A DNA stretch of 64,000 nt from Pelolinea sp. (lineage in GTDB: Bacteria; Chloroflexota; Anaerolineae; Anaerolineales; Anaerolineaceae): the NCBI GenBank assembly GCA_012797975.1, contig JAAZOD010000031.1, positions 1-64,000 on the forward strand, read 5' to 3'. The notes below the pieces were generated by a model. It made no database searches, had not been told where the DNA came from, and saw nothing but the letters and a program-made list of their open reading frames with translations. Positions 51,515 to 64,000 of the stretch are shown here, one piece after another. The stretch's first letter is position 1, and each line of letters opens with the position of its first letter. The position numbers and the translations under genes are program-made.

Positions 51515-53137
51515 ATGGCAGAGAAAAACATTCAAACAAAATTCATTTTTTTCACCGGCGGTGTGGTCAGTTCGGTCGGAAAAGGATTGACCGCAGCTTC
51601 GTTGGGAAGATTATTAAAAGAACGCGGTTTCAAAGTCGGCGTTCAGAAACTGGATCCATACCTTAATGTAGACCCGGGAACCATGAGCCCTTACCAGCAC
51701 GGCGAGGTGTTTGTGCTGGATGACGGTGCAGAAACCGATCTGGACCTGGGTCATTATGAACGTTTCATCGATATTCACCTGAACAAAGATTGCAATGTCA
51801 CCACCGGTCAGGTATATGCCGAAGTGATCAGCAAAGAGCGTCAGGGAGATTATCTGGGCGGCACCATTCAGGTCATTCCACACATCACCAATGAGATCAA
51901 ACGCCGCATCATGAAAGTGGCAGAGACCTCGAGGGCAGATTTCATCATGCTCGAAGTGGGAGGAACGGTCGGCGATATCGAGAGCCAGCCCTATCTCGAA
52001 GCCATTCGCCAGCTGCGCAACGAGATCGGCCGCGATCACACCTTTCACATCCATGTCACCTGGCTGCCCTATATCGGGGCAACCAACGAACTGAAGACCA
52101 AACCCACTCAGCATTCAGTGCGCGAACTGCGTTCCATGGGCATCACCCCCAATATGATCATCGCCCGCGCCGACCAGCCAATCGACGACTCGCTGTGCGA
52201 GAAGATCGCCCTTTTCTGCGACGTGGAAAAGAAAGCGGTCATTCCCATGCAAACGCTGAACTCCTACTATGAAGTGCCGCTGGTGCTTGAAAAATATCAC
52301 GTGGGCGAATACCTGCTGGAACATTTCAACCGCAAACCGCTTAAGAAACCAGAATGGCAGCAGTGGAACGAGCTGGTGGATGCTGTCCACAACCCTGAAC
52401 GGGAAGTAAATATCGCCATCGTAGGAAAGTATGTAGAACTGCACGATGCCTATATCAGTGTGCGCGAAGCCCTCAACCATGCGGCTCTGGCCCACAAAGC
52501 CAAGCTGCATATCAACTGGATCCACTCCTGCGATCTCGAAAAAGGGAATGGCTGGGATGAATTGAAACAAGCCGCCGGCATCGTGGTGCCGGGAGGGTTT
52601 GGCAACCGCGGCATCGAAGGCAAGATCGCCGCTGCCCGTTATGCGCGCGAGAACAAAATACCTTACCTGGGATTGTGCCTAGGCATGCAAATGATGGTGG
52701 TGGAATTCACGCGCTTCCATCTGCAAAATGAAAAAGCCAATTCTACTGAATTCGATGAACACACTCCCCTGCCGGTTATCGATCTGATGCCCGACCAGAA
52801 AAATATTACCGATAAAGGCGGCACTATGCGCCTGGGGCTGTACCCATGCGACCTCACTCCCGGTTCCATCGCTGCCCGAGCCTACAAGATCAGCCAGGTG
52901 GAAGAACGCCACCGCCACCGCTATGAATTCAATAATGCCTACCGGGAAGTGCTGGCGGAAAAAGGACTGGTCTTCTCAGGCCTTTCCCCCGACCAACGCC
53001 TGGTGGAGATCGCCGAGATCAAGGATCACCCATTCATGCTGGGCACGCAATTCCATCCCGAATTTCTCTCACGTCCCAGCCGCCCCCATCCCCTGTTCAA
53101 CGAATTCATGCGCGTGGCGCTGGAACTTTCCCGATAA
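51515..53137 (+). CDS. pyrG: CTP synthase
   Basis: 540 residues from ATG 51515. The synthetase domain opens FIFFTGGVVSSVGKGLTAASLG, with DPYLNVDPGTMSPYQHGEVFV. The glutaminase domain has GGFGNRG, GLCLGMQ (catalytic Cys) and the final FHPEFLSRP with His-x-Glu. It makes CTP from UTP and glutamine. An in-frame ATG at 51494 has no ribosome binding site and gives an atypical extension; 51515 has GAGAAAAG nearby. The leader hairpin suggests CTP-responsive control. Confidence 0.96.
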   Translation: MAEKNIQTKFIFFTGGVVSSVGKGLTAASLGRLLKERGFKVGVQKLDPYLNVDPGTMSPYQHGEVFVLDDGAETDLDLGHYERFIDIHLNKDCNVTTGQVYAEVISKERQGDYLGGTIQVIPHITNEIKRRIMKVAETSRADFIMLEVGGTVGDIESQPYLEAIRQLRNEIGRDHTFHIHVTWLPYIGATNELKTKPTQHSVRELRSMGITPNMIIARADQPIDDSLCEKIALFCDVEKKAVIPMQTLNSYYEVPLVLEKYHVGEYLLEHFNRKPLKKPEWQQWNELVDAVHNPEREVNIAIVGKYVELHDAYISVREALNHAALAHKAKLHINWIHSCDLEKGNGWDELKQAAGIVVPGGFGNRGIEGKIAAARYARENKIPYLGLCLGMQMMVVEFTRFHLQNEKANSTEFDEHTPLPVIDLMPDQKNITDKGGTMRLGLYPCDLTPGSIAARAYKISQVEERHRHRYEFNNAYREVLAEKGLVFSGLSPDQRLVEIAEIKDHPFMLGTQFHPEFLSRPSRPHPLFNEFMRVALELSR

Positions 53138-53181
53138 GCGCCCTGCCCGTGATGACAACCCGGAGAAAAAGCATTTCGTAT

Positions 53182-53187
53182 TATACT
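53182..53187 (+). promoter_or_regulatory. Possible -10 box for eno
   Basis: TATACT 43 bp before the eno ATG in the 92-bp gap after pyrG, within an AT-rich patch. The -35 is not clear. Confidence 0.35.
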
Positions 53188-53214
53188 TAAAGGTTGGATT
53201 ATAAATTCACCTAA

Positions 53215-54528
<1,314 letters not shown>

Positions 54529-54537
54529 ATGGAATGC

Positions 54538-54573
54538 AAAGAGAGGAGAAGCAATCTCCTCTCTTTTTTTATC
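54538..54573 (+). terminator. Intrinsic terminator after eno
   Basis: 12-bp stem AAAGAGAGGAGA (54538-54549) with 54555-54566, 5-base loop and T run. Confidence 0.88.
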
Positions 54574-54739
54574 CAGTGACATGTAAAAGGAGTTTCAAAA
54601 TTCTCCGGCAGTCAGATGACAACTGTTGACAAAAGTTGACAGCAGAGAAACGCTCAAAATTGGTTTCAAGGAACAAAGCATATTTTCCACCGACGCTGGT
54701 GTGACATGCCCCGCCAGCATGAATTTTTTTATGAATATA

Positions 54740-54766
54740 TTGTCATGTGGGCAATCCGGATATAAT
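54740..54766 (+). promoter_or_regulatory. Promoter of the 76-residue protein gene
   Basis: TTGTCA (54740-54745), 15-bp spacer, TATAAT (54761-54766), 37 bp before the ATG. The spacer is short. The rest of the gap 54574-54739 holds two TTGACA hexamers 10 bp apart (54626, 54636) but no matching -10, and no gene that I can support. Confidence 0.5.
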
Positions 54767-54803
54767 TCGTAGATACCCATAAACCGAATTTGGAGAACAG
54801 ACA

Positions 54804-55034
54804 ATGGAACTGGATTTGAAAAAACTCACAGATGAGCTCTTGAACCTGCTGACGGATTATTTGAAGCGAGAGCCGCAGACCCTGGCACGCATCACGGAAA
54901 TCGGCGAACAGTTGAACAATGAAGGGGGTATGAGGTTAATGCGCCAGGTCGGTTCCATGGTGCAGGATCAGGACCTGTTGAAGGCATCCTGGTTGAACAA
55001 TGCCTGGGATGGGATCGGCAATTGGATGGCATAA
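54804..55034 (+). CDS. Small conserved-looking protein of unknown function
   Basis: 76 residues, family not recognised. It has its own TATAAT box and a GGAG ribosome binding site 8 bp before the ATG, which supports a real gene. It is helical and charged in the first half (LKKLTDELLNLLTDYLKRE, then ITEIGEQLNNEGG) and ends with Trp-rich SWLNNAWDGIGNWMA. No signal peptide or membrane helix. Soluble; possibly a small partner or regulatory protein. Confidence 0.65.
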   Translation: MELDLKKLTDELLNLLTDYLKREPQTLARITEIGEQLNNEGGMRLMRQVGSMVQDQDLLKASWLNNAWDGIGNWMA

Positions 55035-55210
55035 GGGAATAACCTCCCTCACCATGCCGCATTCCCAAGTGCACCCAGAAGCTGCATATTCAAGCCAGAG
55101 TTGGCGAAAGCGGTGCCTTTAGCGGCTGGGGCATATTGAATACCAAGTAGCATTAATGGAACACAAAAAAAGGGAAGAATGTTTAGAGAGTACGTTTGCA
55201 ATGCACCTTA

Positions 55211-55253
55211 CCAAATCGTAAATTTATCGGTGCATTTATAACGCACCCTACTA
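55211..55253. repeat. 43-bp repeat, copy A
   Basis: Matches copy B (55919-55961) at 36 of 43 positions in the same orientation, most differences being transitions. Read on the minus strand it contains GGTGCGTTATAAATGCACC, an imperfect palindrome of the kind found in dispersed intergenic repeats. It ends 4 bp from the stop codon of the lipoprotein gene. The rest of 55035-55210 holds nothing that I can identify. Confidence 0.65.
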
Positions 55254-55257
55254 AAAC

Positions 55258-55821
55258 TTACGGGGTATTGGCAGCAGATTGGGTGATACAGAGCATGCCC
55301 GGGGCATAAACATCGCTCTGCGGCATGCCAACCCAGATAGTATAGCTGCCCGAAGAGGCATATTCCATATCCAAAACAGGGCTCGTCCCGCTGCTATTGG
55401 ATGAATTGTCTATGCATATCCATTCTTGATCCGGCATGTGGACGATCAGCGCTGTATCCATCCCATCATCCGAAGGAACAAAGTAGATGCGCAAGAATCC
55501 TTCGGAAGCACCGCCGCTCAAGTTGAAAGCAAATGTTGGAGCAACCGTGGTGAACCCACACGCAAGATCCATCATCGAAGTGTCGAAGGTACCTCCCGCC
55601 CCCACACCTACAACGTAGGGATCCGGAGAGAAGCCACGCTGCAGGTCAGCCAGACCGTAGAGCGGGTCACCCTCATAATCCAATATTTTAGAGCTATCAG
55701 TATTCGTTGACTCTATTGGAGAGGGAGGTAAGGTGCCGATTGGTGCTGGCTTGCTGCAAGCGGAATTGATCACGCCCAGGATGCATAAAATTAACCCGAT
55801 GCGAATTAACTTCCTAACCAT
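55258..55821 (-). CDS. Lipoprotein of unknown function
   Basis: 187 residues from ATG 55821, which has GGAAGGG 8 bp upstream. The signal peptide ends in a lipobox (INSAC), so it is membrane-anchored. A Pro/Ser-rich linker follows. The mature part starts with YGLADLQRGFSPDPYVVGVGAGG and has an all-beta look with repeated hydrophobic strands (LRIYFVPSDDG, YTIWVGMP), similar in style to secreted pre-peptidase C-terminal domains. Two Cys (in LACGF and WICID) may form a disulfide, with a third near the C-terminus. It is flanked by 43-bp direct repeats, which suggests a mobile or duplicated module. Confidence 0.75.
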   Translation of the reverse strand: MVRKLIRIGLILCILGVINSACSKPAPIGTLPPSPIESTNTDSSKILDYEGDPLYGLADLQRGFSPDPYVVGVGAGGTFDTSMMDLACGFTTVAPTFAFNLSGGASEGFLRIYFVPSDDGMDTALIVHMPDQEWICIDNSSNSSGTSPVLDMEYASSGSYTIWVGMPQSDVYAPGMLCITQSAANTP

Positions 55822-55918
55822 TTTTTTATCCCTTCCTGCCAGCATTCATGCAAAAATATTTCGCTTATGATGCTAACGCAGTTCCTTACAGCAGTAAGGT
55901 ACATTTTTATCTCACCAT

Positions 55919-55961
55919 CCAAATTGTAAACCTATCGATTCATTCATAACACACCCTACTA
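55919..55961. repeat. 43-bp repeat, copy B
   Basis: Direct-orientation partner of copy A (84 percent identity by eye). Its right end runs into TATAAT (55960-55965), so the repeat supplies part of the promoter of the M28 peptidase gene. Confidence 0.65.
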
Positions 55962-55965
55962 TAAT
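55960..55965 (+). promoter_or_regulatory. Probable -10 box of the M28 peptidase gene
   Basis: TATAAT 32 bp before the ATG, with GAAGGG as ribosome binding site between. It overlaps the end of repeat B. No clear -35. Confidence 0.5.
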
Positions 55966-55997
55966 TATGAAATACCACACTCTGAAGGGAAAACGCC

Positions 55998-57200
55998 ATG
56001 ACCGCATCTCAACCTAACCCATTTGAAATCTTAAAATCCAGCATCCTCAGCCGCCCGCGCATGATGGGCACGGATGGCGAGCAAGAAACCCATGTTTTCC
56101 TGATCGATTTCCTCAGCAAGCACAAGTTGAACCCCTATTCCGAAGAGATCGAATGGTCCACCGCTTTTATGGAAGGACGCAAGCTTCTGTATGCTTTCAT
56201 GAGTCTGTTTGTGATGCTGATCAACCTGTGCCTGCGCCTGTCTTCGCCATGGAACAGCATCCTCCCCGGGGTGTTGGCCATTCTTTCCATCATCACTCTG
56301 GTGGTAGGAATGAAAGGGCTTACCGACGACAAATATCAAGCGGTTGGAAAAACCTTCAAGGGGCAGAATGTGCTGTGCGACATTGAGCCGCAGCACAAGA
56401 AGGATAACACCCCTGTCATCTATTTCACCGCCCACTCCGACAGCATCTCCTCCAAGCATCCAAAATTGAACACGCTCGCCATGCTGGGCATGCTGCTGGG
56501 ATTTCTGATCACCATTTCGCTCACCCTTGCCAGCACAGTTCTGCACTGGACATCTCCGCAAACCGCTGCGATCCAGACCCTCACCCTCATCATCCTGATC
56601 AGCAGCATGATCAACCTGCTGTGCACTGCTTTTGTATACACCACAAAGCACGTGAACAGCGGTCCGGGTGCGGTTGACAATGGCAGCGGTTCCGCCATCC
56701 TGCTGTGCCTGGCAGCCCACTTTCGGGAACATCCCTTGATGAACACACGCCTGAAATTCATCTGGTGCACCGCGGAGGAATGGGGCCTGTACGGTTCCAA
56801 GGGTTATGTCAAAGCGCATCGAGAGGAGATCGCCGCCCAACGCGAGCGCAGCCGCCTCATCAATGTGGATATGGTCGGGTCGGAACTGGCATATCTGAAA
56901 AAATACGGTTTTCCGTTCCAAAAACCGCTCAACAAGACCTTGAACACGTTAATCGCACAGACCGCCAGCGAGGCCGGCATCGCAGCGCGCCCGTTCAATT
57001 CGGTGATCGGCAGCAACAGCGACCATGCTCCCTTCCACAAAGAAAAGGTAGAAGTATGTTTCTTCCTTGCCAATAAAGATTCCAAGATCATCCACAGCCC
57101 GCAGGATACCATCGCGAAGGTGAAACCGGAGAAACTGGCGGATGCGGTGAGTTTGATCGAACGGTTGGCGGAAAAGATCGACGTTGACTGGGACAAATGA
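55998..57200 (+). CDS. M28-family membrane metallopeptidase
   Basis: 400 residues. Zinc-aminopeptidase motifs in order: TAHSDS (His, Asp), GAVDNGSGSAILL (bridging Asp), TAEEWGLYGS (catalytic Glu and ligand), VDMVGS (Asp) and SNSDHAPF (last His). Two pairs of membrane helices are inserted, at about 67-110 before the first ligand and 158-208 between the first and second ligands. The active-site domain is therefore tethered at several points. No signal peptide; the side of the membrane facing the active site is not clear. Substrate unknown. Confidence 0.87.
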   Translation: MTASQPNPFEILKSSILSRPRMMGTDGEQETHVFLIDFLSKHKLNPYSEEIEWSTAFMEGRKLLYAFMSLFVMLINLCLRLSSPWNSILPGVLAILSIITLVVGMKGLTDDKYQAVGKTFKGQNVLCDIEPQHKKDNTPVIYFTAHSDSISSKHPKLNTLAMLGMLLGFLITISLTLASTVLHWTSPQTAAIQTLTLIILISSMINLLCTAFVYTTKHVNSGPGAVDNGSGSAILLCLAAHFREHPLMNTRLKFIWCTAEEWGLYGSKGYVKAHREEIAAQRERSRLINVDMVGSELAYLKKYGFPFQKPLNKTLNTLIAQTASEAGIAARPFNSVIGSNSDHAPFHKEKVEVCFFLANKDSKIIHSPQDTIAKVKPEKLADAVSLIERLAEKIDVDWDK

Positions 57201-57249
57201 CCTTGATTGTCTCATTTTTATATATTGTTTGGAGGTCGGTTTTTTCACT

Positions 57250-57470
57250 GCGACTGGTTCTTTGATTGAACAGGTGGGTGACCAATGCTTCGCTGGCGCT
57301 TAGAATGACCGGCGTTTTGAGGGCGTTTCTTGTTTGCTGCGACCGATTTTGGAACTTGACAGGTGGGTGACCAATGTTTCGCTTACGCTCAACATGACAT
57401 CTTTTTATTGCGACTGGTCATGGAGTTTGACAGGCGGGCGACCAATGCTTTGCTGGCGCTCAGCATGACA
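57250..57470. repeat. Three 61-bp direct repeats in a non-coding stretch
   Basis: Copies at 57250-57310, 57339-57399 and 57410-57470, each exactly 61 bp, beginning TGCGAC and ending ATGAC, with a shared core CAGGTGGGTGACCAATG followed by TTCGCTGGCGCT (variants in each copy). Spacers are 28 and 10 bp of unrelated sequence. On the minus strand the units read GTCATGCTGAGCG...AGCAAAGCATTGGTC, which resembles the dispersed 'TCATGCTGAGCG...GAAGCAT' intergenic repeats known from several phyla. The whole gap 57201-57560 otherwise contains only the promoter of the next gene. Confidence 0.8.
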
Positions 57471-57543
57471 AATCCAGTCGAAAAATGGAATGCCGGTTGC
57501 GATAAAGCAATCATATAATCACCCGAAGGATCTTCATATTTCG

Positions 57544-57552
57544 TGCTACAAT
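57544..57552 (+). promoter_or_regulatory. Extended -10 promoter for a leaderless RNHCP mRNA
   Basis: TGC plus TACAAT (57547-57552), 8 bp before the GTG at 57561. A second TATAAT lies at 57515-57520. No Shine-Dalgarno sequence before the GTG. Confidence 0.5.
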
Positions 57553-57560
57553 AACGTTTC

Positions 57561-58045
57561 GTGTATAAATCTAATCGCAATCACGGTAAAGATTTTCTCA
57601 TCGTCAGACATCCTTCCGATGTCTGAATTGCCATACCATCATTTCAAATAATCCATTAGGTACAAAACACCGGAATCACTGTCCAATGTGTTTGTGGTCC
57701 AAACATCTTGACCTGTATATTCCCGGTGACAGAAGATCGAATTGCGGATCGCGCATGAAACCGATCGGATTGGCTTTTAAAAAGTCGAATTCATATTCAG
57801 AACAAACCAACGGTGAAATAATGATCGTTCATCAATGTTTGAATTGCGGAAAAATCGCGGCCAACAGGATCGCAGGCGATGATGATTCTTTTGCTATCCT
57901 TGCTGCATTCAACGCTTCATTGACAACCGATGCAGCAATAGCTATCCAGACAATGAATTTACCGATCCATTTGCTGACCATCGAGGATAAGGAAAAAGTC
58001 CTCAGAAGCTTGTTTGGAAACAATTATTCCAAATTCATTGACTAG
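57561..58045 (+). pseudogene. RNHCP-domain zinc-binding protein gene with a -1 frameshift near the 5' end
   Basis: The downstream frame, read upstream of its first ATG (57686), continues as FRCLNCHTI ... PLGTKHRNHCPMCLWSKHLD, then PGDRRSNCG, IVHQCLNCGK and NRIAGDD. This is the complete RNHCP domain with its Cys pairs. That frame has no start codon and is closed by TAA at 57588-57590. The other frame starts at GTG 57561, encodes VYKSNRNHGKDF and reaches TGA 57 bases further. The two join if the T run at 57593-57596 is read with a -1 shift (GKDF-SHRQTSFRC). This could be a lost T in a homopolymer, a sequencing error, a real pseudogene or ribosomal slippage. The function of RNHCP proteins is unknown. 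Confidence 0.75.
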
Positions 58046-58081
58046 ATCCACTCGTATTGGAACAAAAGACCATTCAAGTAC

Positions 58082-58111
58082 GAAAAGAGCGATGGGTCCA
58101 TCGCTCTTTTC
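58082..58111. terminator. Bidirectional terminator between RNHCP and phosphatase-like genes
   Basis: Near-perfect 14-bp palindrome GAAAAGAGCGATGG (58082-58095) with 58098-58111, A-rich on one side and T-rich on the other, between converging genes. Confidence 0.85.
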
Positions 58112-58124
58112 AGTGTCTTCTATT

Positions 58125-59759
58125 TTATGCTTTCTTTTTAACACCCGCGACCAATGCCGATAGACCCGTCAACAGCAACCCAAAGACCGCCACAAACATG
58201 CTCTGTAATATGGATAAAAAGCCGATAAACATGGAGCCAAACTCAGGCAGGGTCCAGGTTATCAGGATCCCATTGCGATACAGGTTCCACAAGATCGGCA
58301 GGAAGAGCATGTAGAGCAGGATGAAAAGAAAATCGATGCTGGTTTGAGCAGCGGTACGAGAACCTTCCCTAAACCCTTTGACCCACAGCATGCTGACCAG
58401 CCAGCCGATCAGCAGTCCGATCCCCATATCCTGTGCAGCGCACAAGATGAAAGCATTTGCGTCTGCCATGGAACTGAGCGTATAGGTATTTCCCTGAACG
58501 ACCGCATACAGCAAATGAAATACCAGAATGGCAACAAGCGCACCCAACCCATACTTTGGCAGATTGCGATCTTTCTTGCGATAGATGAAATAACCAGGAA
58601 GGAGAACCAGCAGCACTGTGACCACCAGGCGGAAGATGCGTTCCCTGGCCAAGCGCTGCGACCGGATGGTTTGCATGGCCGTTGCAGCCGAGCCCGTTCC
58701 ATCCACTTGAAAGCCATCCACACCCATGGCCGTCTGATACTTCTGCAGCAGTTGTTCTTGTTGAAGCTGCTGCAATTCATTGAACGCTTCTTCTTGTTCA
58801 CCGGTAAACGCAAGCATCTCGGTCAATGCGCGCCCCTGATTGCTGGCAGGGATGCTGGTTCCGAGCAACGCCGCCAGTGTCGGAGCGATATCCACCATCT
58901 CAATATCCGCATACTGCCCGGGCACCACGCCGGCACCCAGCATCACAAAGGGTTCCAACATGGTAATGGGCTCTGTCCCTCCATGGCCGCCTGCATCGAT
59001 CTGCCCATGGTCGGAGATCACCAACAGGGTATCTTTTTCAAGATCAAGCCCTGCAGTGATGGTTTGCAGCATAGCATCCACCCGTCTGGCGGCGGCCGCC
59101 CAGTCCTCGCCCAGCGGTCCGCCCTGGTGATGACCGGCATAATCCACCTGATCCAGATGGATGAGAACAAGCTGGTACTGCGCATCCTGCAGCCAGGGAA
59201 CAGCAGCCCCCAGCACATCCATATCCGCGGCGCTGTCTTCCCCGGGAGTATAAAAACCTTCGTCCACACCCGAGTTGGCCAGCATCTGTTCAAACCAGGA
59301 GAAGCCGGAGACTGCCGTTTTAATTCCTGCCCGATCGGCAGCCGCGAAAATATCATCCTGGGTAAATGTGCGCACGCTATCATCATCCGGCGGATTGGCC
59401 GGCTGGCTGTCGTTGATGTCGGGCCAGGCACCGCTAAGAACGGTCGCCCAGCCGGGATCAGAATAAGAAGGCGGCTGGCTGTGCATGGTGGCCACAGCCG
59501 CGTTCTGGCGCAGCTTGTTCAGGTACGGCATCACCTGTACATCCAGCGAAGTATCCTCGCGCAGCGCATCCACCAGCACGACCACCACCCGCCGGCTGAG
59601 AGCCGAGCCGCTCGCATCCCCTGCCAGCGGCGGATCGCCAGCCAAAGGAGAGCGGAAATTCATGAGGGAATCCATGACCGCATTCGCTAAAAAGTAGGCA
59701 CCCAGCGCAATAAGCAACAGCGCAGTTATTCCCATCCATAATCTGGTTTTATTTTTCAT
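58125..59759 (-). CDS. Alkaline-phosphatase-superfamily (type I phosphodiesterase) membrane protein
   Basis: 544 residues from ATG 59759 (GAAGGA upstream; an earlier in-frame codon at 59822 is rejected). An N-terminal anchor (about 9-28) is followed by a Gly/Pro-rich linker with two SPLAGDPPLAGD-like repeats. The superfamily core has VVVVLVDALREDT (metal Asp), SDPGWATVLSG (nucleophile region), HLDQVDYAGHHQG and ISDHGQIDAGGHGG. Four or five helices at the C-terminus (from about 385) follow. Relatives cleave phosphodiesters or transfer phospho-head groups onto lipid-linked sugars, as in GPI synthesis. That makes envelope work likely, but the substrate is unknown. Confidence 0.85.
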   Translation of the reverse strand: MKNKTRLWMGITALLLIALGAYFLANAVMDSLMNFRSPLAGDPPLAGDASGSALSRRVVVVLVDALREDTSLDVQVMPYLNKLRQNAAVATMHSQPPSYSDPGWATVLSGAWPDINDSQPANPPDDDSVRTFTQDDIFAAADRAGIKTAVSGFSWFEQMLANSGVDEGFYTPGEDSAADMDVLGAAVPWLQDAQYQLVLIHLDQVDYAGHHQGGPLGEDWAAAARRVDAMLQTITAGLDLEKDTLLVISDHGQIDAGGHGGTEPITMLEPFVMLGAGVVPGQYADIEMVDIAPTLAALLGTSIPASNQGRALTEMLAFTGEQEEAFNELQQLQQEQLLQKYQTAMGVDGFQVDGTGSAATAMQTIRSQRLARERIFRLVVTVLLVLLPGYFIYRKKDRNLPKYGLGALVAILVFHLLYAVVQGNTYTLSSMADANAFILCAAQDMGIGLLIGWLVSMLWVKGFREGSRTAAQTSIDFLFILLYMLFLPILWNLYRNGILITWTLPEFGSMFIGFLSILQSMFVAVFGLLLTGLSALVAGVKKKA

Positions 59760-59875
59760 AGAATCCTTCTTCTCTTTAAATGATCGATCTGCCAGGCATG
59801 GATGAACGATAGCCCTCGTCAAGATTTCAGTTCATCATGGTAGTGGATTATTATACTGAAAAAGTGCAATGAATT

Positions 59876-60556
59876 CTACAAATCCATTCTTTGGCGGGCT
59901 TTTTGCCAAACCTCATCGAACATGGAGGCGGTCAGCCGACCGGTCTGGGTATTCTGCCGGCTGGGGTGATAGGATGCCAACAGCCAGGGCAGGCCAGAAA
60001 ATTCAAACAAAACGCCATGCGCAAAGACAGGCCTCTTTGAGAAATGGCAGCCATACTGCTTGCGGTAAACCTCCAACAGCCGATCAAAGGCAATGCTGCC
60101 CAGCGCCACAAAACCCTGCAAGCGGGGCAATAACCCAATCTCGCGCAACAGATACGGCCGGCAGGTTTCGATCTCGGCACCGGTCGGTTTATTTTGCGGA
60201 GGTGCACAGCGAGCGACAGCGGTGATGAACAAATTATTCAACTGAAGCCCATCTCCGATGGCCAAAGAAGCCGGCCGGTTACAGAAACCGGCCCGATAGA
60301 GAGCCGGATACAAAAAATTCCCCGAGGCATCCCCGGTGAACATGCGCCCGGTGCGGTTGGAACCGTGCGCCCCCGGCGCCAATCCCACCACCATCACCTG
60401 TGCAGCGTGATCGCCAAAGCCCGGCACCGGCTTTCCCCAATATTCGCAGAAGCGATAAGCGGCTTTCTTTTCCTGTGCCACCCGTTCGCGCCAAGCCACC
60501 AGCCGCGGACACTTCCGGCAGGCGATCAACTCTTTTTCGTGCATTTCCCAATCCAT
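59876..60556 (-). CDS. udgB: Family 5 uracil-DNA glycosylase (UdgB type)
   Basis: 226 residues from ATG 60556 (4 bp after the queA stop); an ATG at 60544 is the alternative. The N-terminal Cys pair (IACRKCPRL) belongs to an Fe-S cluster with later Cys residues. Motif 1 VGLAPGAHGSNRTGRMFTGD and the C-terminal motif SYHPSRQNTQTGRLT are typical of family 5 (UDGb), which lacks the usual catalytic Asp/Asn in motif 1. It removes uracil and other deaminated bases from DNA. It is last in the ruvB-queA-udgB run. Confidence 0.9.
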   Translation of the reverse strand: MDWEMHEKELIACRKCPRLVAWRERVAQEKKAAYRFCEYWGKPVPGFGDHAAQVMVVGLAPGAHGSNRTGRMFTGDASGNFLYPALYRAGFCNRPASLAIGDGLQLNNLFITAVARCAPPQNKPTGAEIETCRPYLLREIGLLPRLQGFVALGSIAFDRLLEVYRKQYGCHFSKRPVFAHGVLFEFSGLPWLLASYHPSRQNTQTGRLTASMFDEVWQKARQRMDL

Positions 60557-60560
60557 ATTT

Positions 60561-61580
60561 TCACCGGATGAACATGGCATCACCAAAGGAATAGAAACGG
60601 TAGTGTTCCTGTTTGGCAACCTCATAGGCATGGCGGATATTCCCCCACCCCGCAAACGCGCTCACCAGCATGATGAGCGTGGATTTGGGTAAATGAAAAT
60701 TGGTGATCATTGCATCGACCACATGAAATGGATGACCCGGCAGGATGAACAGATCGGTCATGCCCTCATAAGCGCGAATGACCTCGTGCGGGGGCACATC
60801 CCGCGCCGCTGATTCGAGAGTGCGCACAGAGGTGGTGCCCACCGCGATCACCCGCCCGCCGGCCTGTTTGGTCGCCCGGATGCAGTTCGCTGTCTCCTCG
60901 CTCACCTGGCACCATTCACAGTGAATGTGATGATCTTCCACATTTTCTTCATTCACCGGAGCAAAGGTATCCAGTCCAACATGCAGCAGCACTTCTGTGA
61001 ATTGGACGCCCTGTGCTTTTAAACTTCGGATAAGCTGTTCGGTAAAATGCAATCCTGCCGTCGGGGCAGCCGCCGAACCAGCCACTTCGCTATAAATGGT
61101 CTGGTATCGTTCAGGGTTGAGCAATTTTTCATGGATATAGGGAGGGAGCGGTGTATTCCCGATGGCGGGCAGGAAACTCTCCACCGGCTGCGCAAACCGA
61201 ATAGTGCGGTTCGCCCCATCCTCCTCCGCCAGGATCTCCACCTCCGGCCCATCGTCAATGGTCAGATGCATGCCGGCCTTCAAGCGCTTGCCGCCCAGCA
61301 TGGCCAGCCAGGTATCATCGCCATTCTTGCGCAGCAACAAAATCTCCACTTTCCCGCCGGTGGGTTTGCGGGCATAAATGCGAGCCGGGATGACACGTGT
61401 TTTGTTCAGCACCAGCAGATCGCCAGGGTTCAAAAAATCGCCGATCTCGTGAAAAATGGAATGGGTGATGCTGCCGTCGGCGCGCGAAAGCACCAACAGC
61501 CTGGAAGCATCGCGCGGTTCCAAGGGGGTCTGGGCAATATACTCCACGGGGAGTTCGTAATCAAAATCCTGGGTTTTCAC
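60561..61580 (-). CDS. queA: tRNA preQ1(34) S-adenosylmethionine ribosyltransferase-isomerase
   Basis: 339 residues. [27 protein letters not shown] at the start, [25 protein letters not shown] and [10 protein letters not shown] are diagnostic. It transfers the ribosyl part of SAM to preQ1 in tRNA, giving epoxyqueuosine, the substrate of QueG (encoded at 39-40 kb). Its start overlaps the ruvB stop by 4 bp. Confidence 0.97.
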
Positions 61581-62611
61581 GATGGGATCAAACTCGGTTG
61601 AGAAGGATTATCGGGAAAAGTGTATCCCAAATGTTCATACGCCAGTTGGGTGGCACATCTGCCCTGCGGCGTGCGGCTGAGGAAACCGATCTGCAACAAA
61701 TACGGTTCCACCACATCCATAATGGTATCGGCTTCTTCACTGATGGAAGCGGCGATGGTGCTCAACCCCACCGGCCCGCCGTTGTATTTTTTAATGATGG
61801 TCTCCAGCACCATGCGGTCGATCTCATCCAGCCCCAACGCGTCAATGCTCAACAAGCTCATGGCTTCGCTGGCCGCTTCACGGGTAATCGTACCCGAAGC
61901 GCGCACCTGGGCATAATCGCGCACCCTGCGCAGCAAACGCAGCGCCACGCGCGGGGTACCGCGCGAGCGGCGGGCGATCTCCTCCACCCCCTTTTCATCC
62001 GCCTGGATATGCAGGCGCTCCGCAGCGTTCAGCACAATATACTTAAGCGCATTAGGATCGTAGTAATCCAAGCGGTAAATGGCTCCAAAGCGCGTGCGCA
62101 ACGGGGAACTGATCAGCGCCAGGCGTGTGGTGGCTCCGATGACAGTAAAACGGGGCAGTTTCAGGCGGATGGAACGCGCGGAAGGGCCTTTTCCGATGAT
62201 GATGTCCAGCGCAAAATCCTCCATGGCGGGGTAGAGCACTTCTTCCACCGCTTTCCCCAAGCGATGAATCTCATCGATAAACAGAATATCCCCACCGTTC
62301 AGATTGGAAAGGATGGCAGCCAGGTCTCCCGGCCGTTCAATGGCAGGCCCGGAGGAAACCTTGATGTTGACCCCCATCTCGTTCGCCAGCACATGCGCCA
62401 GGGTAGTCTTTCCCAACCCGGGAGGACCGTAGAAGAGCACATGATCGAGCGCATCGTTGCGCTGCTGGGCCGCCTTGATAAGGATCTGCAGATTCTCGAT
62501 GACCTGGTTCTGTCCGATGACATCTTTCAGAAAGCGCGGGCGCAGCGCATTATCGAGCTGTTCGCCCTCTTCCGGCTGTGGATCGATGATTCTGGGTGGT
62601 TCTGCATTCAT
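61577..62611 (-). CDS. ruvB: Holliday junction branch-migration ATPase RuvB
   Basis: 344 residues from ATG 62611. [11 protein letters not shown], Walker [12 protein letters not shown], Walker [10 protein letters not shown], sensor GATTR and the winged-helix C-terminus ([10 protein letters not shown]) are in place. A longer frame to 62773 would add 54 unrelated residues and cross the divergent promoter region. The chosen ATG lies 7 bp after TATAAT, so a leaderless mRNA is likely. ruvA and ruvC are not in the window. Confidence 0.96.
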
Positions 62612-62618
62612 AAAAAAG

Positions 62619-62624
62619 ATTATA
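62619..62624 (-). promoter_or_regulatory. -10 box for a leaderless ruvB operon mRNA
   Basis: TATAAT on the minus strand, with only 7 bases before the ruvB ATG and no ribosome binding site. The upp promoter (AT-rich TATTATATAG, about 62649-62658, plus strand) lies in the same 82-bp gap. Confidence 0.6.
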
Positions 62625-62693
62625 CCTTTGGTTATCAACCAATTTCTGATATTATATAGGTTTGTATGAAATAATTCTAATGGAGAATGGCTT

Positions 62694-63320
62694 ATGGATA
62701 ATGTTTTCGTTTCAAAGCATCCCCTGGTGCAGCATAAGCTGGCGAAACTGCGTAGCAAGGACACCGAACCCAAAAAGTTCCGCGAGCTGATCCGTGAGAT
62801 CGCCGGATTGCTGGCCTACGAAGCCACCCTCGACCTGGAACTTTCTCCCCAGGAAGTAACCACTCCTCTTGAAAAGATGAGTGGTTTTATTTTAAAGGAG
62901 AAGATAGGTCTAGTCCCCATCCTGCGCGCAGGCCTGGGAATGGTGGAAGGGGTGTGGGATCTGATGCCCTCATCGGAGGTGTGGCATATCGGTTTGTATC
63001 GCGATGAGAAAACGCTCAAACCGGTACAGTATTACAACAAGCTCCCGGTGGAGCCGCGCGTATCGGTATGCCTGATCCTCGACCCCATGCTGGCGACCGG
63101 TGGGTCAGCCACCGCCACCATCGACGTGTTGAAAAACTGGGGGGTGAAGCGCATCAAATTCGTCGGCATCATCGGCGCTCCCGAAGGGATCAAACTGGTA
63201 CACGACAACCATCCGGACGTTCCCATCCATCTGGCTGCCATTGACAGGCAGTTGAACGATCACGGTTACATCTTGCCCGGTTTGGGCGATGCGGGTGACC
63301 GCCAGTTTGGTACCGGATAA
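62694..63320 (+). CDS. upp: Uracil phosphoribosyltransferase
   Basis: 208 residues. [27 protein letters not shown] is the usual start, [15 protein letters not shown] and the PRPP loop [11 protein letters not shown] follow, and the C-terminus has [17 protein letters not shown]. It salvages uracil with PRPP to UMP. GGAG lies 8 bp before the ATG. A terminator follows directly. Confidence 0.97.
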
Positions 63321-63353
63321 AAAAACGGCTGATCTCTATCAGCCGTTTTTTAC
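63321..63353. terminator. Bidirectional intrinsic terminator, upp / tpiA
   Basis: 14-bp perfect stem AAAAAACGGCTGAT (63321-63334) with 63339-63352 and a 4-base loop, between converging genes. Confidence 0.9.
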
Positions 63354-63367
63354 TCTTTAAGGATGGA

Positions 63368-64000
63368 TCATTTTATTGAGCCCTGAGCGGCCTGGCAGAT
63401 CTGGATAAATTCATCCGCTTTCAGACTGGCCCCGCCCACCAGAGCGCCATCGATATCCGGCATGCCGAAGAACTCGGCCGCGTTGCTGCCCTTCACCGAT
63501 CCGCCGTACAAAATGCGGATCTGTTCTGCGCTTTCGCTGCCAAAGCGATCCGCCAAACTGCCGCGCACGATCTTGCCGATGATGTCTTCGGCCTGCTGGG
63601 AGGTGGCAGCTTTGCCGGTGCCGATGGCCCAGATGGGTTCATAGGCAATGACCAGCTTGACCGCATCTTCAGAGCTGAGATCCTTCAAACCCTCCAGCAC
63701 TTCGCGCTGGACGATCTCGGCGGTGCGGCCGGCCTCATTTTCCGTTATCGTTTCGCCGACACACACAATGGGGGTCAACCCCATTTTCAAAGCCGCTTTC
63801 ACTTTGGCATTCACGGTTTGATCCGTTTCCGCGAAGAACTGGCGCCGCTCGGAGTGACCCACGATGACGTAATCGCAGAACTCTTTCACCATGGCAGGCG
63901 CCACTTCACCGGTGAACGCACCGGATTCTTCCCAGTGCATGTTCTGTGCGCCCAATCCAATATCGGTTCCAGCGATCATTTGTGAAATGACCATCAGCGA
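63368..64000 (-). CDS. tpiA: Triosephosphate isomerase (N-terminus beyond the window)
   Basis: The 3' 211 codons of tpiA; the frame is open to the window edge, so the first 40 or so residues are missing. VIVGHSERR (catalytic His), AYEPIWAIGTGKAAT (catalytic Glu), ILYGGSVKGSN and DGALVGGASL are intact. Interconverts dihydroxyacetone phosphate and glyceraldehyde 3-phosphate. Confidence 0.95.
   Translation of the reverse strand, partial: SLMVISQMIAGTDIGLGAQNMHWEESGAFTGEVAPAMVKEFCDYVIVGHSERRQFFAETDQTVNAKVKAALKMGLTPIVCVGETITENEAGRTAEIVQREVLEGLKDLSSEDAVKLVIAYEPIWAIGTGKAATSQQAEDIIGKIVRGSLADRFGSESAEQIRILYGGSVKGSNAAEFFGMPDIDGALVGGASLKADEFIQICQAAQGSIK

Follow-up and report, generated by a model that had tools for sequence, protein, structure and literature searches.

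Programmed -1 ribosomal frameshifting in bacteria is known from insertion sequences and dnaX, where a Z_ZZN or X_XXZ_ZZN motif lies in frame 0 and a structure follows a few nucleotides downstream (PMC4066793). In E. coli, Z_ZZN tetramers with a strong 3' pseudoknot shift in the order A_AA.G >> U_UU.C > U_UU.U > C_CC.U = C_CC.C > A_AA.A, and these six active motifs span 0.26-5.6% (PMC4066793). Another case is the autoregulatory frameshift of prfB (release factor 2), in which a short first ORF ends at UGA and an obligatory +1 shift occurs at CUU_UGA with a Shine-Dalgarno stimulator (PMC5009743). Conserved frame transitions in prokaryotic genes have also been surveyed as GeneTack recoding clusters (PMC3711429). 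Here, we examined a gene for the zinc-binding RNHCP domain (PF12647) that appears broken, located in a 64,000-nt stretch (hereafter the window) of contig JAAZOD010000031.1 from Pelolinea sp. (Chloroflexota; assembly GCA_012797975.1). We show that at least 15 species, apparently of two phyla, keep the same split, which suggests that ribosomes must slip back one nucleotide to make this protein.

A split RNHCP gene conserved in one clade

The RNHCP domain is encoded in frame 57590-58045 (151 codons between stops; 100.7 bits against a gathering cut-off of 24, E 4.7e-29, residues 7-103), and its CxxC, NHCPxC and later Cys/His residues are invariant or nearly so in a 49-row alignment. The first ATG of this frame, at 57686, comes directly after Arg-Asn-His-Cys-Pro. 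From there back to the upstream TAA, the in-frame codons hold no ATG, GTG or TTG, and between that TAA and the first cysteine (Cys1) there is no CTG, ATT, ATC or ATA either. The only usable start, a GTG, opens another frame that encodes VYKSNRNHGKDFLIVRHPSDV before its stop, and joining the two frames requires a step of -1 (or +2). An earlier note had described this split, with the junction at the T run, and had left assembly error, pseudogene and slippage as options. We confirm its frames, with two corrections. First, a start at 57686 would lose 26 of the 97 matched domain residues, about a quarter and not half as the note had claimed. Second, the T run is only the slippery part, since a perfect 8-bp hairpin follows 8 nt later (Table 1).

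Table 1 Features of the split RNHCP gene in the window
Positions	Strand	Feature	Basis
57242-57469		Three direct repeats of 68 nt (two at 74 and 78% identity to the first) just upstream of the gene	A 23-nt core is found nowhere else in the window at up to 3 mismatches
57544-57552	+	Extended -10 box, TGC-TACAAT (hexamer 57547-57552)	Sequence; promoter function inferred
57561-57626	+	Frame-0 ORF: GTG start, 21 codons, TGA stop (57624-57626); its first 12 codons would form the N-terminus of the protein	Reading frames
57587-57589	+	TAA in the RNHCP (-1) frame; the shift must happen downstream of it	Reading frames
57593-57596	+	Slippery tetranucleotide T_TTT (Z_ZZN)	Only in-frame Z_ZZN in the permitted stretch
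57597-57604	+	8-nt spacer between slip site and hairpin	Sequence
57605-57625	+	Hairpin CAGACATC-CTTCC-GATGTCTG (arms 57605-57612 and 57618-57625), predicted frameshift stimulator	dG -12.5 kcal/mol, z -3.9
57596-58045	+	RNHCP coding frame as read after a -1 slip (stop TAG 58043-58045)	Reading frames, domain match, selection
57608-57898	+	RNHCP domain PF12647 (first CxxC, RNHCPxC and further Cys/His)	Profile match; AlphaFold2 model pLDDT 90.9

Protein searches recovered the same arrangement in 14 other species. Three belong to the window's family, namely G002 (genomes are given by our labels; same genus, 70% identity) and G020 and G145 (another genus of the family, G145 being a single-contig genome). 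The other eleven are small-genome bacteria, probably Patescibacteria: G557 (record JAJXYH010000048.1), G700, G685, G668, G1115, G1112, G1178, G1114, G721, G1084 and G1088. The count might be incomplete, because loci were inspected only for the best matches (30 of 53 matching genomes in one search and 30 of 35 matches in another), and the locus in G001, of the same genus, is cut by a contig end. In a tree of 116 RNHCP domains the 15 split genes form one clade (bootstrap 99, SH-aLRT 94) with G721 deepest, while thirty-two unsplit rows, all but one of the window's own family, form a different clade (100/97). More distant relatives do encode the domain in one frame, but the nearest clade does not. 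The four split genes of the window's family sit as two pairs among small-genome rows, and the simplest reading is transfer between phyla with the frameshift kept.

The downstream frame is under purifying selection. Nei-Gojobori dN/dS of the -1 frame downstream of the overlap is 0.16 (G020/G145), 0.14 (G685/G1114) and 0.11 (G1115/G1114); dS was saturated in the five other pairs tried, with dN 0.25-0.40. In contrast, the other two frames of the same DNA give pN/pS 1.0-1.6 in four pairs. An assembly error in the T run or a recent pseudogene was worth considering because the window comes from a draft assembly of 35 contigs and frameshifts at short homopolymers are a common artefact. However, the split recurs in 14 other species including a single-contig genome, in G020 the run is only TTT followed by C, and three members have a different slip sequence. 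Together with the selection on the -1 frame, this conservation argues against both readings for this gene, and we consider them very unlikely.

Protein searches of viral contigs returned no relatives, and a DNA pattern search returned a single hit without RNHCP, taken as a chance palindrome. Phages gave six weak unannotated hits. Of three hits to a DNA pattern over 400 phylum genomes, only the window is an RNHCP gene, and a profile search over 396 class genomes at E 1e-48 found only the window. Rfam found nothing at 52000-64000.

Start, slip site and hairpin

All 15 split genes have a TANAAT box followed, 6-9 nt on (8 nt in 12 of 15), by an NTG start in frame 0: ATG in 10, TTG in 4 and GTG in the window. 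Without choosing boxes by frame, an NTG 5-10 nt after any TANAAT within 115 nt of Cys1 is found in frame 0 in 15 of 15, in the +1 frame in 1 of 15 and in the RNHCP frame in 0 of 15, and the same counts hold for open NTG frames with the promoter ignored. Such spacing suggests a near-leaderless mRNA. Similar boxes are enriched 6-9 nt before candidate starts of long ORFs in 200 kb of G1115 (21 against 6.2 expected) and weakly in 238 kb of the genome labelled G000 (18 against 12.7). A +1 shift from the third frame was rejected (an open NTG in 1 of 15), whereas stop-codon readthrough was rejected because several stops lie in the RNHCP frame upstream in the window. A rival reading is that RNHCP starts in its own frame at a non-canonical codon and that the upstream ORF, which is short and ends inside the gene, is a separate leader peptide: G700 has a TTG, and G1084 an ATA and a CTG, in the RNHCP frame before Cys1. 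Yet 13 of 15 have none of ATG, GTG, TTG, CTG, ATT, ATC and ATA between the -1 frame stop and Cys1, making this reading highly improbable.

Twelve members have T_TTY at the same aligned place, with 9-12 codons from start to slip, so that this stretch varies in length by whole codons. Of the remaining three, G721 and G1084 have A_AAA, and G1088 has the heptamer T_TTA_AAA among five Z_ZZN candidates; its slip site is ambiguous and further from the hairpin. The presence of a Z_ZZN alone is weak evidence, as codon shuffles give at least one in 10.3 of 15 permitted stretches against 15 of 15 observed. In G1178, however, the RNHCP frame is closed just upstream and frame 0 just downstream (taa-GGTTTTTGTC-taa), the frame-0 TAA coming two codons after the slip codon, with a non-shifted product of only 12 residues. 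This natural experiment confines the shift to the codons AAG GTT TTT GTC, whose only Z_ZZN is T_TTT. A +2 shift gives the same frame and cannot be excluded by frame alone, although the slip motif favours -1.

In the twelve T_TTY members, the 8-nt spacer is followed by a hairpin of 8 pairs with a 5-nt loop. Of 96 stem cells, 95 pair (8 as G-U), the exception being an A-C mismatch in G557, and no pair changes on both sides. The loop third positions vary; that of the TCN codon is T in 6, C in 4 and A in 2. Hairpin codons show 0.354 synonymous differences per site against 0.883 elsewhere at unchanged residues. Around Cys1, 14 of 15 split loci fold at z <= -2, the exception being G1084 (z -0.87), against 4 of 103 unsplit RNHCP loci (mean z -2.88 and -0.13, respectively). 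The hairpin thus belongs to the split clade and not to the domain's coding sequence in general. It also bears on slippage by RNA polymerase, which the T or A runs at the slip sites could suggest: that mechanism does not need a conserved RNA hairpin, and runs of 3 to 5 bases at the T_TTY and A_AAA sites are probably short for transcriptional slippage. We therefore regard polymerase slippage as very unlikely.

Taken together, and on computational evidence alone, programmed -1 ribosomal frameshifting is strongly favoured as the explanation. Transcription probably starts at or within a couple of bases of the GTG, as inferred from the -10 box. The ribosome would read about a dozen codons of frame 0 to the Phe codon of T_TTT, where the hairpin is inferred to make it pause and the Phe tRNA re-pairs one base back (UUU to UUU), after which the -1 frame is read through the whole zinc domain. 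Ribosomes that do not slip would stop at the TGA and make only a short peptide. The protein would exist only if the slip happens, so slip efficiency would set its dose. Because U_UUN tetramers were weak in E. coli, the yield may be low.

Gene neighbourhoods and predicted fold of RNHCP

Unsplit RNHCP genes often neighbour rsgA, coding a ribosome-assembly GTPase. Among 56 nearest neighbours in the window's order, 19 match RsgA_GTPase; the 12 MMR_HSR1 matches come from a general GTPase model, and no other family exceeds 3. In Vibrio coralliilyticus pOCN014 RNHCP overlaps rsgA, and in a Streptomyces plasmid two RNHCP genes precede a gene annotated FBP domain protein, a group that may be related to EF-G-binding FusB. 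These observations hint at work on the ribosome and give a first functional lead for the domain. However, no family dominates among 74 neighbours in other lineages or 28 neighbours of split genes, and RsgA passes its cut-off in the 4 split genomes of the window's family but in none of the 11 small genomes. Hence, the RsgA link cannot explain the frameshift by itself. In several small genomes RNHCP follows an ORF whose end reads like a UvrD-type helicase, and UvrD_C was matched by 3 of the 74 neighbours, although the tally does not tell which loci. The AlphaFold2 model is confident (pLDDT 90.9, pTM 0.85), but no solved structure matched it well (Foldseek best E 0.11; VIA-align 2 best Z 2.8), and a profile search gave only eL42 at E 0.08.

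A speculative and rather unlikely possibility is that the slip acts as a regulatory sensor of the translation apparatus. In this hypothesis, RNHCP would be a ribosome-associated factor, partner of RsgA-type assembly GTPases, made only when ribosomes slip on its own mRNA and in turn lowering slipping, a -1 counterpart of the prfB loop. The near-leaderless cassette would have moved between Patescibacteria and Chloroflexota as a working unit.

Comparison with described frameshift systems

In the literature we searched, we found no relevant paper on RNHCP and no earlier report of this frameshift. A search combining ribosomal frameshifting with zinc ribbon, bacteria and slippery led only to the human antiviral protein Shiftless. 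Neither RNHCP nor zinc occurs in the main text of the GeneTack survey (PMC3711429), and zinc, leaderless and RsgA do not occur in the first 300,000 characters of a 2016 review (PMC5009743), where RNHCP was not looked for. The present case recurs in 15 species with different slip sequences within one clade, has closely comparable unsplit relatives as a built-in control, and exemplifies a gene that automated callers would truncate or miss.

Compared with unsplit RNHCP genes, the split genes carry the same domain and Cys/His pattern, but the other RNHCP loci that we scanned have an in-frame start before the first CxxC. Like prfB, the gene has a short first ORF ending at UGA, a shift near the start of a cellular gene that appears obligatory, and a conserved cassette. 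Yet the shift is -1 instead of +1, the slip lies 27 nt before the stop, and there is a 3' hairpin, whereas prfB has a Shine-Dalgarno stimulator; autoregulation is not shown here. With the -1 frameshifting of insertion sequences and dnaX (PMC4066793) it shares a Z_ZZN tetramer in frame 0, a structure a few nucleotides downstream and a shift of -1. It differs in being a chromosomal gene of unknown function in which the slip is needed for any domain product, 9-12 codons after the start of an apparently near-leaderless mRNA, with no Shine-Dalgarno-like stimulator seen by eye upstream of the slip site.
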